From the NCBI GenBank assembly GCA_020161795.1, contig JAIUOR010000012.1, forward strand, positions 1 to 64,000: 64,000 nucleotides of DNA, given 5' to 3'. The stretch comes from Actinomycetota bacterium. GTDB lineage: Bacteria > Actinomycetota > Actinomycetes > Propionibacteriales > Propionibacteriaceae. Of the stretch, positions 28,464 through 34,165 are shown one piece after another. Made by a program: the position numbers and the translations under genes. The notes below the pieces were generated by a model. That model searched no databases. It saw nothing but the letters and a program-made list of their open reading frames with translations, and was not told the DNA's origin. Numbering within the stretch: the stretch's first letter is position 1; each line of letters starts with the position of its first letter.

Positions 28464-28555
28464 CCATTTGATTCTTGATTGGCATGCCGCGGTCTTCCTA
28501 TCCTCTCAGACAGGATCTCCCTGCCGGGATGCCGCCAATCGATGAAGGAGTACGT

Positions 28556-29470
28556 ATGACCAACCCAGCCGCTATCCGGGTCTCGGAACAAGTACGGGAG
28601 GCCCTGGCCGCCAACCAGCCGGTCGTGGCGCTGGAGTCGACGATCTTCACCCACGGACTCCCCCGTCCCCGCAACGTCGAGGTCGCCCTGGAGGGCGAGG
28701 CCACGGCGCGCGCGGGCGGTGCGGTCCCGGCAACGATCGGCATCGTGCACGGACAGCCGGTGGTCGGGCTGAGCGAGGACGAGATCCGGGAGCTCGGCTA
28801 CGACGACAATGCCGCCAAGGCCTCGATCCGCGATCTCTCCTACGCCGCGGTCTCGAAGAAGAACGCCGGCACCACCATCGCCGCGACGGCGCTGCTGGCT
28901 CGCGCCGCGGGCATCGACGTGTTCTCCACCGGCGGGCTGGGCGGCGTCCACCACGGCGCCGCCACCACCTTCGACGAGTCGGCCGACATCTTCGCCCTCG
29001 CGGAGATCCCGATCGTCCTGGTCAGCTCCGGCGCCAAGGCGATCCTGGACATCCCGGCCACCCTGGAGCGCCTGGAGACCCTGAGCGTGCCCGTGGTCGG
29101 CTACCGCACCGACCGCTACCCCGGCTTCTACGTGGTAGACTCCGGCTACGACCTGGCCACCCGGGTGGAGGATCCGAGCGAGGTCGCCACCATGGCGCGG
29201 ACCCAGCAGGCGCTCGGCCTGCGGAGCGCCGTCCTGGTGGCCAACCCGGTCCCCGCCGACCAGCAGCTCGACCCCACCGGGCTGGACGAGGTGCTGGAGC
29301 GGGCCTGGGCCGCGGCCGACGCGCAGGGCATCCACGGGCAGGCGACCACCCCGTTCCTGCTGGACTTCATCCGCGTGGCGACCGAGGGTCGCAGCCTCGT
29401 CGCCAACACAGCCCTGTACTTCAACAACATCCGGCTCGCGGCCCAGATCGCTGCCGAGCTGACCCGGTAG
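28556..29470 (+). CDS. psuG: Pseudouridine-5'-phosphate glycosidase
   Basis: A 304-residue PsuG. It splits the C-C glycosidic bond of pseudouridine 5'-phosphate to uracil and ribose 5-phosphate; Mn-dependent. Signature blocks: VALESTIFTHGLPRPRN at the N-terminus, AKASIRDL and KKNAGTTIAATA, VFSTGGLGGVHHGA (active-site loop), DESADI and SSGAKAILDIPATLE. The ATG at 28556 has AAGGAG. psuK starts 2 bp after its stop. Pair of genes forms a complete scavenging route for pseudouridine from RNA turnover. Confidence 0.95.
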   Translation: MTNPAAIRVSEQVREALAANQPVVALESTIFTHGLPRPRNVEVALEGEATARAGGAVPATIGIVHGQPVVGLSEDEIRELGYDDNAAKASIRDLSYAAVSKKNAGTTIAATALLARAAGIDVFSTGGLGGVHHGAATTFDESADIFALAEIPIVLVSSGAKAILDIPATLERLETLSVPVVGYRTDRYPGFYVVDSGYDLATRVEDPSEVATMARTQQALGLRSAVLVANPVPADQQLDPTGLDEVLERAWAAADAQGIHGQATTPFLLDFIRVATEGRSLVANTALYFNNIRLAAQIAAELTR

Positions 29471-29472
29471 TC

Positions 29473-30369
29473 GTGCTCGGCGTCATCGGCGACGTCGTTC
29501 AGGACGTCGTCGTCTGGCAGCTCGAGGAGATCCGGGCGGCGACCGACACCAAGGCGGAGATCACCATGACCCGGGGCGGGTCGGCGGCCAATGTTGCTGC
29601 CTTCGCCGCCCCGCGTCATCCGACGCGCTTCATCGGCTGCGTGGGCGACGATCTCGGCGGGCTGGTGCTGACCCAGGAGCTCAAGCAGCGCGGTGTCGAC
29701 GTGCGCCTGCAGACCCGCGGCACGACCGGCATGATCGTCGTCCTGATCGACAGCCTGGGCGAGCGGGTCATGTTCCCCAGCCGCGGCGCCTCGCTGCAAC
29801 TGGAGACCGTCGACCCGTCCTGGCTGGACGACCTCGACATCCTGCACGTCACCGCCTACTCCTTCGACGGCGGCAGCACGGCCACCACCGTGGTGGAGGC
29901 CATCCGCGAGCAGCACCGCCGCGGCGGCAAGGTCAGCCTGGATGTCTCGTCGACCGGCATGATCGACCATTTCGGCACCGCGGCCTTCCTCGACCTGATG
30001 GCCGAGTTGCGGCCGGACTTCATCTCCGCGAACCGGGACGAGGCCCACCACCTCGGCCTGACCAGCGGGGACGAACCCGGCCCCGCCCTGGGCCGGTTCG
30101 GGGATGCGATCCTGTTGGCCCGGCAGGGCAAGCAGGCCACCAATGTCTTCCGGGCTGGTCGGCTGGCCGCGACCGTCCCGGTCACGCCGGTCGACGGCGT
30201 ACGGGACATGACCGGGGCCGGCGACGCGTTCAACGCCGGCTTCCTCACCGCCTACCTCACCAACGGCGGCGACCTCGTCGCATCCTGTCTGGCCGCCCAC
30301 GCCCTGGCGGCCCGGGTGCTGCGCTCCCCCGGAGCCACCGAGCCGCCGCTGGAGCCGACCGGATTCTGA
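29473..30369 (+). CDS. psuK: PfkB family kinase, probable pseudouridine kinase
   Basis: A 298-residue ribokinase-like kinase. The second PfkB motif is DMTGAGDAFNAGFLTAY (usual DTTGAGD), near residue 240, with GGSAANVA at the N-terminal first motif. Its close coupling to psuG points to pseudouridine as substrate, giving pseudouridine 5'-phosphate that PsuG then cleaves. Alone the sequence would only say sugar or nucleoside kinase. GTG start, 2 bp after psuG's stop. Confidence 0.85.
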   Translation: MLGVIGDVVQDVVVWQLEEIRAATDTKAEITMTRGGSAANVAAFAAPRHPTRFIGCVGDDLGGLVLTQELKQRGVDVRLQTRGTTGMIVVLIDSLGERVMFPSRGASLQLETVDPSWLDDLDILHVTAYSFDGGSTATTVVEAIREQHRRGGKVSLDVSSTGMIDHFGTAAFLDLMAELRPDFISANRDEAHHLGLTSGDEPGPALGRFGDAILLARQGKQATNVFRAGRLAATVPVTPVDGVRDMTGAGDAFNAGFLTAYLTNGGDLVASCLAAHALAARVLRSPGATEPPLEPTGF

Positions 30370-30458: not shown

Positions 30459-33083
30459 TCAGTCGGTGACGTGGACGAAGCCGTGGGCACCGCGCTCGGC
30501 ATCCACCATCAGGTGGCTGACCACCGCGTAATGGCCGGCCTCGGGGAACACCGCCTCGACGAAGCCGCCCTGGGCCGGCAGCAGGCCCAGCACCTGGGAG
30601 CCGCCGTCCTCGGTGCCGAAGGCGTCCCTGCCCTGTTTCAGCAGGTAGTGACCCTCGGCGTAGACGGTGTCGAACTGGGAGCCGACGATATGGAAGCTGC
30701 TGGGCCGGTTCGGGCCGGCGTCCAGCACCCAGAACCGCACCCGCTCCCCGGTCCTGGCGGCGAACTGCCGCTGGTCGTAGGCGTTGGCGACGCCGTTGAA
30801 GACCACGTAGTCGGGCTGCTCGGCGTTGACCTTGTCGGCGTTCACCTCGGTGGCGCCCTCGGCGTCCGTGGCCGGGGTGTCGAGGTAGACCTCGGACTGC
30901 ACCAGCACGTAGGAGCGATCCACCGGGGGCAGGTCGTCGGGCTCGATGACCACCGCACCATGCATGCCGGCGGCGATGTGGGCGCTCATCGGCATGGTCG
31001 AGCAGTGATACATCCAGATCCCGGCCATGGTGGCGGTGAACCGGTAGACCAGCGACTCACCGGGTTCGATGGTGCGCATCGGCTGGTCCGGGGCGAGCGA
31101 GCCGGCGTGGAAGTCGATCGAGTGCCCGATCGTGCCGTCGTTCACCAGCGTGATCTCGAAGACGTCGCCCACCCGGCCGTGCAGGGTTGGCCCCGGCGCC
31201 GTGCCGTTGAAGGTCCAGCGTCGCTGCCACACCCCGGGCGCGACCTCCAGCGGCACCTCCGAGACGGTGAAGGTCAGTTTGTGGATCTTCTCGTCGGTGA
31301 GCGGGGGTAGCACCGGGTCGATGACGGACGAGAGCTCCGGCGCCTCCCCCTCCGGCTCGTGGCCCTGATGCCCCGACGGCTCCGGCGACGGTTCGGACAC
31401 CGGCGCGTCGTCCACGATCACCTCGAAGGTCATCCCCATCTGCCGGTGGCCGACCACCGAGCAGAAGCCCTGGATGGACTCCCCGATCACCCCGGCGTCG
31501 AGCTCCTCGGTGGCGCCCGGCGCCAACCGGCTGGTACGCGCGTCGCCGATCACCAGGTCGTGGGTGGTCGTGTCGGCATTCACCAACTCGACGATCAGCT
31601 GGTCGCCGCGGTTGAGGTGGACGCTGGCCGGCTCGTACCGCATCCCGACCGCCTCGACCTTCACCCGCACCACGTTCCCCGTCGGGGTGACCGCCGAGGT
31701 TCCCGGTGGGGTCGAGGCACCGACCTCGGCTGCCGCCGGATCGACCCCGACCCCGAGCACCACCGCCGTGGCGATGGCGGTCAGGCCCGCGATCACCTGG
31801 CCGGCGGTGAGCACGCTGCGCGTCTGGATCGGCGCCGGACGCGGTACCGGAGCCGGCGCCGGCTCGGCCGTCTCCGCCTCGCGCCGCGCGCGCAGCGAGG
31901 CCCGCAACCCGCCCGCCATCAGTGGCAGGAACATCCCGGCACCGATCAGCGCCAGCAGCGAACCGGTCACCTTCACCCAGCTCGGGGTGGGCAGCAGCCA
32001 CAGCGCCACGCCGCCGTTGATCGCGATCAGCCGGAAGCCGCCGATCCTGTTGAACCAGGCCTGGCCGGCCCGGACCACGCTCGGCCCGCCCCCGATCACG
32101 GACGGCAGCAGGTACGACAACGCTCCGGTGACGAGCTGGACGACGCCCACCCCCAGCGCGGCCGCCGGCCAACCGAAGCCCTCCCGGATGGCGGCCCAGC
32201 CCGGCGCGGTGACCAGCAGCCAGCCGGCCCAGACCAGCCCTACCACCGGCCAGACCAGCGCGACCCCCACCGACAGCGGCGCGAACTCACGCGGCGGACG
32301 GTTGCGGAGCGGCTGCCACAGCCCGCGACCCCACAGGCCCAGCGCGGCCAGGTACAGAACCAGCCCGACCGCGGCCAGCCAGGGCACGCCGAGGAGCGCG
32401 CCGGCCACCGCGACCGCCACGGCGGCGAGGAAGAGCGGCAGTGCCCGGCGCGTCCACAGCTCGGCACGGTCGTCCATCCGGGTACGCAGCATGGTGGGCC
32501 ACAGCGTCAGCAGCGTCCCGGTGACAGTCAGCCCGACCCATCCGAGCACATTGGCCAGGGCGTGGCCGACCAGCAGGCGGCCGTGCCAGGCGTCGTCCCA
32601 GCCCCAGGCCGTGATCACGCCGAGGGTGATGCCGACCAGCAGGCAGGCCGCGGCCGCCAGGTAGTACCGCACGGTCACCTTGAACCGGGCCGGGAGCGCA
32701 CTCCGCAGCATCCGTCGCAGGGCCAGCGCGTGCCACCCCACCGCGACCGCCACCAGCGTCGCGCCGCCGAGCGTCACCGGCCACCAGGTGGCGGGAACGC
32801 CCACCAGCACCAGGGCTGTGCCGGCTGCCAGCAGCCCGAGCCGGACGATCTGCTGCCGCGATCCCGCCTCGGTGGCGGGGGCCCGCAGCACGGTCTGGGC
32901 GAAGTGGAAGCTCCAGACCAGGATCGCGTGGCTGGCCGCGCCGAGCAGCACCAGGTGCAGCATCAGCCAGCTGGCGTCGGGCAGCCAGCGGTGGATCACC
33001 GAGACCACGATGGCCGCGACCAGCCACAGCACCAGCGGCAGGTCGCGCCAGAACGAGGTCCCGCGGGCGAGCGAGCGGGTCAT
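30459..33083 (-). CDS. nirK: Membrane-anchored copper nitrite reductase with N-terminal membrane domain and cupredoxin
   Basis: An 874-residue fusion. Residues 1-400 are about 12 hydrophobic helices, NnrS-like in their loop and His-rich content (several His in helices, e.g. HLVLLGAASHAILVWSFHF). Residues 420-445 add another helix. About 470-557 is a plastocyanin-like cupredoxin with a full type-1 Cu set (His508, Cys541, His546, Met549 or 551). Residues 595-874 are the two-domain copper nitrite reductase: His654 and His659 (with Asp657), YHC (His693, Cys694), His702, Met707, His798, His857, matching AfNiR His95, His100, Asp98, His135, Cys136, His145, Met150, His255, His306. It reduces nitrite to NO outside the membrane. 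Overlaps the preceding gene by 4 bp. Confidence 0.9.
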   Translation of the reverse strand: MTRSLARGTSFWRDLPLVLWLVAAIVVSVIHRWLPDASWLMLHLVLLGAASHAILVWSFHFAQTVLRAPATEAGSRQQIVRLGLLAAGTALVLVGVPATWWPVTLGGATLVAVAVGWHALALRRMLRSALPARFKVTVRYYLAAAACLLVGITLGVITAWGWDDAWHGRLLVGHALANVLGWVGLTVTGTLLTLWPTMLRTRMDDRAELWTRRALPLFLAAVAVAVAGALLGVPWLAAVGLVLYLAALGLWGRGLWQPLRNRPPREFAPLSVGVALVWPVVGLVWAGWLLVTAPGWAAIREGFGWPAAALGVGVVQLVTGALSYLLPSVIGGGPSVVRAGQAWFNRIGGFRLIAINGGVALWLLPTPSWVKVTGSLLALIGAGMFLPLMAGGLRASLRARREAETAEPAPAPVPRPAPIQTRSVLTAGQVIAGLTAIATAVVLGVGVDPAAAEVGASTPPGTSAVTPTGNVVRVKVEAVGMRYEPASVHLNRGDQLIVELVNADTTTHDLVIGDARTSRLAPGATEELDAGVIGESIQGFCSVVGHRQMGMTFEVIVDDAPVSEPSPEPSGHQGHEPEGEAPELSSVIDPVLPPLTDEKIHKLTFTVSEVPLEVAPGVWQRRWTFNGTAPGPTLHGRVGDVFEITLVNDGTIGHSIDFHAGSLAPDQPMRTIEPGESLVYRFTATMAGIWMYHCSTMPMSAHIAAGMHGAVVIEPDDLPPVDRSYVLVQSEVYLDTPATDAEGATEVNADKVNAEQPDYVVFNGVANAYDQRQFAARTGERVRFWVLDAGPNRPSSFHIVGSQFDTVYAEGHYLLKQGRDAFGTEDGGSQVLGLLPAQGGFVEAVFPEAGHYAVVSHLMVDAERGAHGFVHVTD

Positions 33084-34165
33084 CCGCGCACCACCAGGGT
33101 GAGCGCGGTGAGCAGGAAGACCACCAGGGAGACCACGGTGACGATGCCACCCACCTTCCAGATTTCGTTGAAGCCGGCCAGCGCGGCACCGAACCGCACG
33201 ACGAGACCGGCATGGAGCAGTACGAGGGGCGCGTAGAGCACCGGACGGTAGGGCAGCGCCCGTCCCAGCACCGCGGGCAGGATGACCGGCGCGTGGGCCA
33301 TGACCATCGACAGAGCGAAGCCGAGGAACACCCCGTGCACGGCGACGTCATAGCCGGCCTGATCGGCCACCAGCCCTCGAACCGTGAGGACGCCGCCGGC
33401 CAGCGCCAGTTGCACGTAGCCCGCCAGCAGCGCGATCGCGATGTAGCGGCGCTGCCCATCCAGCCGCAGCTGGCGGCGCACCACGTCCCGCAGCAGCAGC
33501 CAGCCCGCGGTGAACAGCAGGGTGAGCCCGAGCAGCCGGTCACCGACCGCTGGCTCGATCAACGCCACGCAGGCGCTGAGCGTGTAGGCGACCGAGACCC
33601 CCAGCAGCGTGCTCACCGCCCGCGGACCCATCCAGAGCTGGGCCAGTTCGGCACGTTCGGAGGCGATGGTGAGGACGATGAAGCCGATCAGCCAGCTGAT
33701 CGCGGCGGGGATGTCGACCAGGGTCGCGACCACCGCGCCGGCCAGCATCAGCACCGCCGAGAGCACCTGCACAGCCACCAGCGGCAGCGGCGCCCGCCGC
33801 CACAGGGCGACATACACCGCGACCAGCAGGGCGGCGCCCTCGATCAGCAGCAACTGCCCCAGCAGCAGCGGCGCCGGAGTCAGCAGCGTCAGCCCGCCCA
33901 GCCCGAGCAGCGCCGGCGCGAGGTACCCCCAGGCCTGTCGCAACGCCTGGGCCCGCTCCAGCGAGATCAGCGTGCCGAGAAAGCCCAGCACCATCACCAG
34001 CCCGTGCACGTCGCCCGCGCGCTGGGAGGCCACCGGCGCCCAGACCTCCAGCCGCACCAGGGCGGCGTTCAGACCGGTGATCAGGCAGGCCCCGCCGAGC
34101 GCGAGTAGCGCCAGCCGCGGCGCCGCGCTCCGCGCCGGCGCGGCGGCCGGTGACTCGGTCAGCAC
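33080..34165 (-). CDS. Multi-pass membrane protein, NnrS-like, partner of NirK
   Basis: A 361-residue protein of about 10-12 hydrophobic helices. It shares the pattern of the NirK N-terminal membrane part and of NnrS-type proteins: HGLVMVLGFLGTLISLERA in the first helices and HGVFLGFALSMVMAHAPVILPAV near residue 290, with conserved His in helices that in NnrS bind haem and copper. The GTG at 34165 has GGAG upstream. It overlaps nirK by 4 bp, so it is co-translated. A role in NO or nitrite stress handling, or in assembly/electron supply to the fusion, is inferred from context only. Confidence 0.72.
   Translation of the reverse strand: MLTESPAAAPARSAAPRLALLALGGACLITGLNAALVRLEVWAPVASQRAGDVHGLVMVLGFLGTLISLERAQALRQAWGYLAPALLGLGGLTLLTPAPLLLGQLLLIEGAALLVAVYVALWRRAPLPLVAVQVLSAVLMLAGAVVATLVDIPAAISWLIGFIVLTIASERAELAQLWMGPRAVSTLLGVSVAYTLSACVALIEPAVGDRLLGLTLLFTAGWLLLRDVVRRQLRLDGQRRYIAIALLAGYVQLALAGGVLTVRGLVADQAGYDVAVHGVFLGFALSMVMAHAPVILPAVLGRALPYRPVLYAPLVLLHAGLVVRFGAALAGFNEIWKVGGIVTVVSLVVFLLTALTLVVRG

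Follow-up and report, generated by a model that had tools for sequence, protein, structure and literature searches.

Why does a copper nitrite reductase (NirK) begin with about 400 residues of membrane protein, and what would such a domain do for the enzyme? The window analysed here is a stretch of 64,000 nucleotides from an Actinomycetota bacterium of the family Propionibacteriaceae (GCA_020161795.1, contig JAIUOR010000012.1, positions 1-64,000 of the forward strand). An open reading frame of 874 amino acids with an ATG start codon occupies positions 30459-33083 of its minus strand. The start lies within the stop codon of the upstream gene, with a 4-base overlap reading ATGA at 33083-33080. 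As delimited from the reading frame, its homologues and a NirK tree, the product joins a 12-helix domain with the predicted fold of haem-copper oxidase subunit I (residues 1-405, 31869-33083), a 13th transmembrane helix (residues 423-449, 31737-31817), a cupredoxin (about residues 468-555, 31419-31682) and a NirK core (about residues 590-874, 30462-31316), all on the minus strand. A sequence-only reading had proposed that membrane domain, cupredoxin and NirK form a single chain, and this is borne out by the 874-residue frame and the domain analysis.

Is the fusion genuine? Many genomes carry it, those of Propionicimonas, Micropruina and Kocuria among them, ruling out an artefact of a missed stop codon or of assembly. 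A separate gene for the N-terminal part, the case that the sequence-only reading had itself raised, is found only in other classes; therefore, the fusion is real. In a Propionicimonas metagenome-assembled genome (L009) whose protein is 90% identical, the frame is broken at a repeat-rich linker containing an N-gap. A split gene was considered there and rejected, the gap marking a limit of the assembly and not two genes. At L009:7220-7670, short GC-rich repeats (GGGATCGTCGGGAGCCG-like, with CCCTTCGACAAGCTCAGGGA) around the gap lengthen the stretch that links helix 12 to helix 13, and a dispersed repeat seems to have entered the coding linker.

The NirK core possesses the type 1 copper ligands H654, C694, H702 and M707, the type 2 ligands H659, H693 and H857, and the catalytic residues D657 and H798 that distinguish NirK from other multicopper oxidases. 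Both catalytic residues are retained in 41 of 41 homologues, as are all copper ligands except M707, which is replaced by Gln in seven. H851 was tried as the third type 2 ligand and rejected: it lies nearby and is not conserved, H857 being the ligand. Pfam Cu-oxidase_3 matches the core, while the NCBIfam equivalog TIGR02376 scores 170.9 bits over residues 599-872 and does not reach its curated cut-off of 296.3. Membership in NirK is therefore claimed on the active-site residues and not on that model. Since those residues are complete, we infer from the sequence that the fused protein is an NO-forming copper nitrite reductase. In the preceding cupredoxin, the type 1 ligands H508, C541, H546 and M551 (CX4HX4M) are kept in every fused homologue examined; Pfam Cupredoxin_1 gives 22.8 bits, below its cut-off of 27. 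The closest solved structures are the Hyphomicrobium NirK (2dv6), which matches cupredoxin plus core (residues 485-872), and Neisseria AniA. The sequence-only reading had expected a full set of NirK ligands and a second complete type 1 site, and both are located here; the loss of copper from the cupredoxin, which it had considered as a counter-case, is not what the retained ligands indicate.

What is the membrane domain? Searches with Pfam, NCBIfam and PDB-sequence profiles returned no family for it or for the product of the upstream gene. An AlphaFold model of residues 1-405, built from an alignment of 37 homologues, has a mean pLDDT of 93 and contains 12 long helices, in agreement with the roughly 400 membrane residues anticipated ahead of the copper domains. 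Foldseek ranks subunits I of haem-copper oxidases highest for this model (6hwh, E 7.8e-4, probability 1.00). VIA-align superimposes it end to end on cbb3 CcoN (Z 28.3, rmsd 3.6 over 381 residues) and on NorB (Z 25.3), and Z scores of 25-28 are far above the level that VIA-align gives for chance matches between helical bundles. On the strength of this model, the 12-helix fold of haem-copper oxidase and NO-reductase subunits I is confidently predicted for residues 1-405. By sequence, Pfam COX1 does not match the window protein and only weakly matches one or two of the 37 homologues (best E 9.7e-4). Compared profile to profile, the fused domain scores no better or little better against COX1, NnrS and the upstream gene than reversed controls do, and its kinship to the superfamily therefore rests on the predicted fold.

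The superfamily holds its two haems and its active-site metal with histidines from helices 2, 6, 7 and 10, and helix 2 carries one of the low-spin haem ligands. Two histidines of the fused domain are invariant, H43 in helix 2 and H174 in helix 6, and no others. By helix order, H43 would occupy the place of one low-spin haem ligand and H174 that of one CuB or FeB ligand; the helix equivalence is taken from the full-length, co-linear structural match to cbb3 and NorB, and the ligand positions from general knowledge of these enzymes. The other invariant residues are G48, G95, G107, G155, G181 and P196; in helix 10 a Gln, Q316, is nearly so. No conserved histidine is present in helices 7 and 10 of the homologue alignment, so that neither the standard two-histidine haem b nor the copper site of the superfamily would be assembled in the usual way. 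The remaining ligands are gone, and the domain has the fold without a complete centre. With H43 and H174 alone left, it is described as sharing the fold and is not filed as an oxidase or an NO reductase. The label "NnrS-like", given to it in the sequence-only reading, is inexact: Pfam NnrS (PF05940) matches neither the window protein nor the 37 family members at E 1, and the conserved histidines lie in helices 2 and 6, as against helices 2 and 10 in NnrS.

The upstream gene (33080-34165, minus strand, GTG start at 34165) encodes 361 amino acids; modelled at pLDDT 86, its product again takes the haem-copper oxidase fold. Its top Foldseek row is NorB 4xyd (probability 1.00), and its Z score against cbb3 is 27.8. 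The fold predicted for both proteins agrees with the earlier suggestion that the membrane domain is alike in kind to the next gene. Helix 2 contributes the conserved H54 and helix 10 the conserved H277 and H291; E170-R171-x-E173 is conserved as well. The NnrS histidines, one in helix 2 and two in helix 10, align with H54, H277 and H291. The upstream gene aligns with NnrS over its full length at P 0.0018, a match that is still weak, with reversed controls at 0.35 or more; PF05940 finds neither it nor 19 members of its family at E 0.1. This family is absent from Pfam and common to Actinobacteria and Proteobacteria, an example being H16_RS32660 on Cupriavidus necator pHG1. On proteobacterial plasmids, its members lie beside DUF2249, Fe-S assembly, NnrS, hemerythrin, Rrf2, norB and hmp genes; in Actinobacteria, they lie beside DUF2249, Fe-S assembly, hemerythrin or narG. 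Of the fused nirK genes, about one in two has such a gene next to it. No convincing consensus FNR or CRP box was found upstream of the operon. After the fused gene, on the plus strand at 28475-30369 of the window, stand two adjoining genes with no link to nitrite metabolism; the first resembles pseudouridine-5'-phosphate glycosidase by eye, and the second is a PfkB-family kinase by Pfam.

Does the membrane domain follow NirK? In a census of 396 actinobacterial genomes, with NirK-like proteins counted at E of about 1e-30 or better, the domain was detected in 56 genomes and NirK-like proteins in 52. Both are present in 40, compared with 7.4 expected, and by family 21 overlap out of 24 and 25; common ancestry makes these figures larger than they would otherwise be, and fused proteins, which count for both, account for eight of the 40. 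In the class to which the window belongs, eight genomes gave a full match to the domain, and each of them has it fused to cupredoxin-NirK. In other classes, it is a separate gene, which adjoins nirK in eight genomes (G025, G051, G075, G097, G140, G172, G326 and G335). The fused domain had no match on plasmids. When 41 NirK cores were placed in a quick maximum-likelihood tree, 19 of 19 fused NirKs fell in one clade (support 99), with an unfused NirK (L021) nested inside. One fusion followed by one loss in L021 is the simplest reading of this tree and probably the correct one. Around the fused gene, a radical SAM gene before nirK and a nitroreductase-like gene after it were observed in two large-genome relatives (L018:144-1409 and L018:4501-5514). 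Elsewhere, the upstream gene and the separate 12-helix gene are paired without NirK beside them (L066:277-1389 and L067:5244-6344), and a secreted protein of a family we do not recognize, beginning ...AHTRTEETTNV, is encoded near these pairs.

How did the fusion arise? With the N-terminus in the cytoplasm, 15 Lys/Arg residues fall in inside loops and three outside. Judged from the sequence by hydropathy and the positive-inside rule, helix 13 is predicted to place the cupredoxin and NirK outside the cell. Most of the unfused cupredoxin-NirKs examined from other classes have a hydrophobic helix at their N-terminus that matches helix 13 in position. The fused gene thus looks like a separate 12-helix gene joined ahead of a cupredoxin-NirK that was already anchored. 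Since the unfused proteins have an anchor of their own, the 12 extra helices are not needed for anchoring alone.

The respiratory setting bears on both the source of nitrite and the fate of NO. The genome of the window is 95.6% complete and encodes NarG (1408 bits); NosZ was not found above the cut-off, and a PF00115 search returned a single protein, the aa3 oxidase, and thus no NO reductase by this search. Among 19 fused-NirK genomes, 17 likewise contain aa3-type COX1 and no other PF00115 protein, while two (G139 and G392) contain a second, full-length NOR-like protein; this count covers PF00115 proteins only. The result is in line with a report that many actinobacterial NirK carriers possess no Nor and must handle NO otherwise (Pold et al. 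2024, PMC10999283). In two relatives (L011 and L004), nar genes adjoin the fused nirK. For the relative Micropruina glycogenica, which has narG and nirK, nitrate reduction has been reported only as far as nitrite (PMC5974061).

We tentatively favour a reading in which the membrane domain is the membrane partner of NirK and feeds electrons to the tethered cupredoxin and NirK, as had been proposed from the sequence. Nitrite made by Nar would be reduced to NO by NirK on the outer face of the cell membrane. Electrons would pass from menaquinol or a cytochrome part of the respiratory chain into the 12-helix domain, from there to the tethered cupredoxin, and on to the type 1 and then the type 2 copper of NirK; the presence of a haem or other redox centre in the domain, the direction of electron flow and the donor are all presumed in this scheme. 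The role is suggested because a domain of oxidase fold tracks NirK and is joined to its cupredoxin, and because the invariant histidine of helix 2 lies in the helix of a low-spin haem ligand. The supply of nitrite and a membrane electron chain fit because narG is in the genome and nar genes lie beside nirK in relatives. Against electron entry, the haem-ligand pair of helices 2 and 10 is incomplete in the fused domain, 12 of the 52 NirK genomes do without the domain, and 16 of the 56 domain genomes have no clear NirK. In the Hyphomicrobium NirK, moreover, about 24 Å separate the N-terminal cupredoxin from the copper of the core, and this cupredoxin is reported not to shuttle electrons (PMC6400189). 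Might the domain instead deal with the product of the enzyme? In the main rival reading, which is possible if on balance unlikely, the domain and its NnrS-like neighbour bind, remove or steer the NO made by NirK and so protect a cell without NO reductase. The 17 genomes whose only PF00115 protein is COX1 speak for this, as does the company kept by relatives of the neighbour gene (NnrS, hemerythrin, DUF2249, Fe-S assembly, Rrf2, norB or hmp). So do a hemerythrin gene adjoining the fused nirK in L004, L006 and L016, Rrf2 regulators near the separate domain gene in L051, L052, L053 and L059, and pairs of neighbour gene and domain without NirK beside them in G009, G370 and G378. However, this evidence concerns mostly the neighbour rather than the fused domain, such a neighbour is missing beside about one fused nirK gene in two, and the ligands of the canonical NO-reducing centre are missing from the domain. 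A further reading, of the domain as a reduced but functional relative of the haem-copper oxidases which takes up or converts the NO of the fused NirK, replacing the missing NO reductase, seems distinctly improbable.

Two further explanations are less likely than electron entry or NO handling. The domain or its neighbour might help to supply the cupredoxin and NirK with their copper. In favour of this, a small CopD/DUF2269-like membrane gene comes immediately after nirK in three relatives (L019:4059-4502, L020:3990-4433 and L021:2775-3212, the last being the relative that lost the 12-helix domain), with two of the three scanned and both below the Pfam cut-off, and NnrS has been classed as a cuproprotein (PMC6769254). 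Yet no metal-transport motif was found, and the fold is that of redox enzymes and not of transporters; a role in metal delivery is improbable. The domain could also be a dead oxidase-like module that only tethers NirK. Most of the metal-ligand histidines of the superfamily are indeed missing, and the fused lineage represented by L021 seems to have lost the domain and kept NirK. Nevertheless, at an identity of only about 30% between fused and separate forms, two histidines and six other residues never vary; where the domain has a gene of its own, that gene has been kept and follows nirK in its distribution, and the single anchor helix already present on unfused NirKs weakens the case for an anchor. 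A relic is accordingly very unlikely in our estimate.

How does this protein compare with known systems? Actinobacteria have a large and widespread NirK clade, many carriers of which are without NO reductase (PMC10999283). An oxidase-fold identity of the domain bears on how this NirK obtains its electrons and on what becomes of its NO; together with the tracking of nirK and an oxidase-fold neighbour known from NO-response loci, it makes both questions directly testable. The sequence-only reading had called the arrangement unusual, which stands in comparison with soluble NirK, but the architecture has already been reported for Propionibacterium acnes, with a membrane part "of unknown function" (Decleyre et al. 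2016, PMC4770552). In that study, all actinobacterial NirKs possess the cupredoxin, with or without the membrane part (PMC4770552). The long P. acnes-type NirK is about 900 amino acids long, with an N-terminal transmembrane domain of about 400 residues, a CX4HX4M cupredoxin and a NirK core, and the window protein has all three parts in one chain; the likeness is one of description and not residue by residue. The difference lies in what the membrane part is here given, and what appears to be new: a predicted haem-copper oxidase fold and a probable ancestry as a separate gene. Neither was found reported in the open literature, most subscription papers falling outside that search. The Hyphomicrobium denitrificans NirK (2dv6) shares the N-terminal cupredoxin and core but is soluble and has no membrane domain. 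cbb3 CcoN and NorB share the predicted 12-helix fold, whereas the fused domain is about 10% identical to them and has conserved histidines in helices 2 and 6 only. NnrS (PF05940), too, is encoded in NO-related loci and crosses the membrane with many helices; its Pfam model finds no match in the fused domain or in the upstream gene, and the fused domain lacks the helix 10 histidines, whereas the upstream gene possesses those of both helices 2 and 10.
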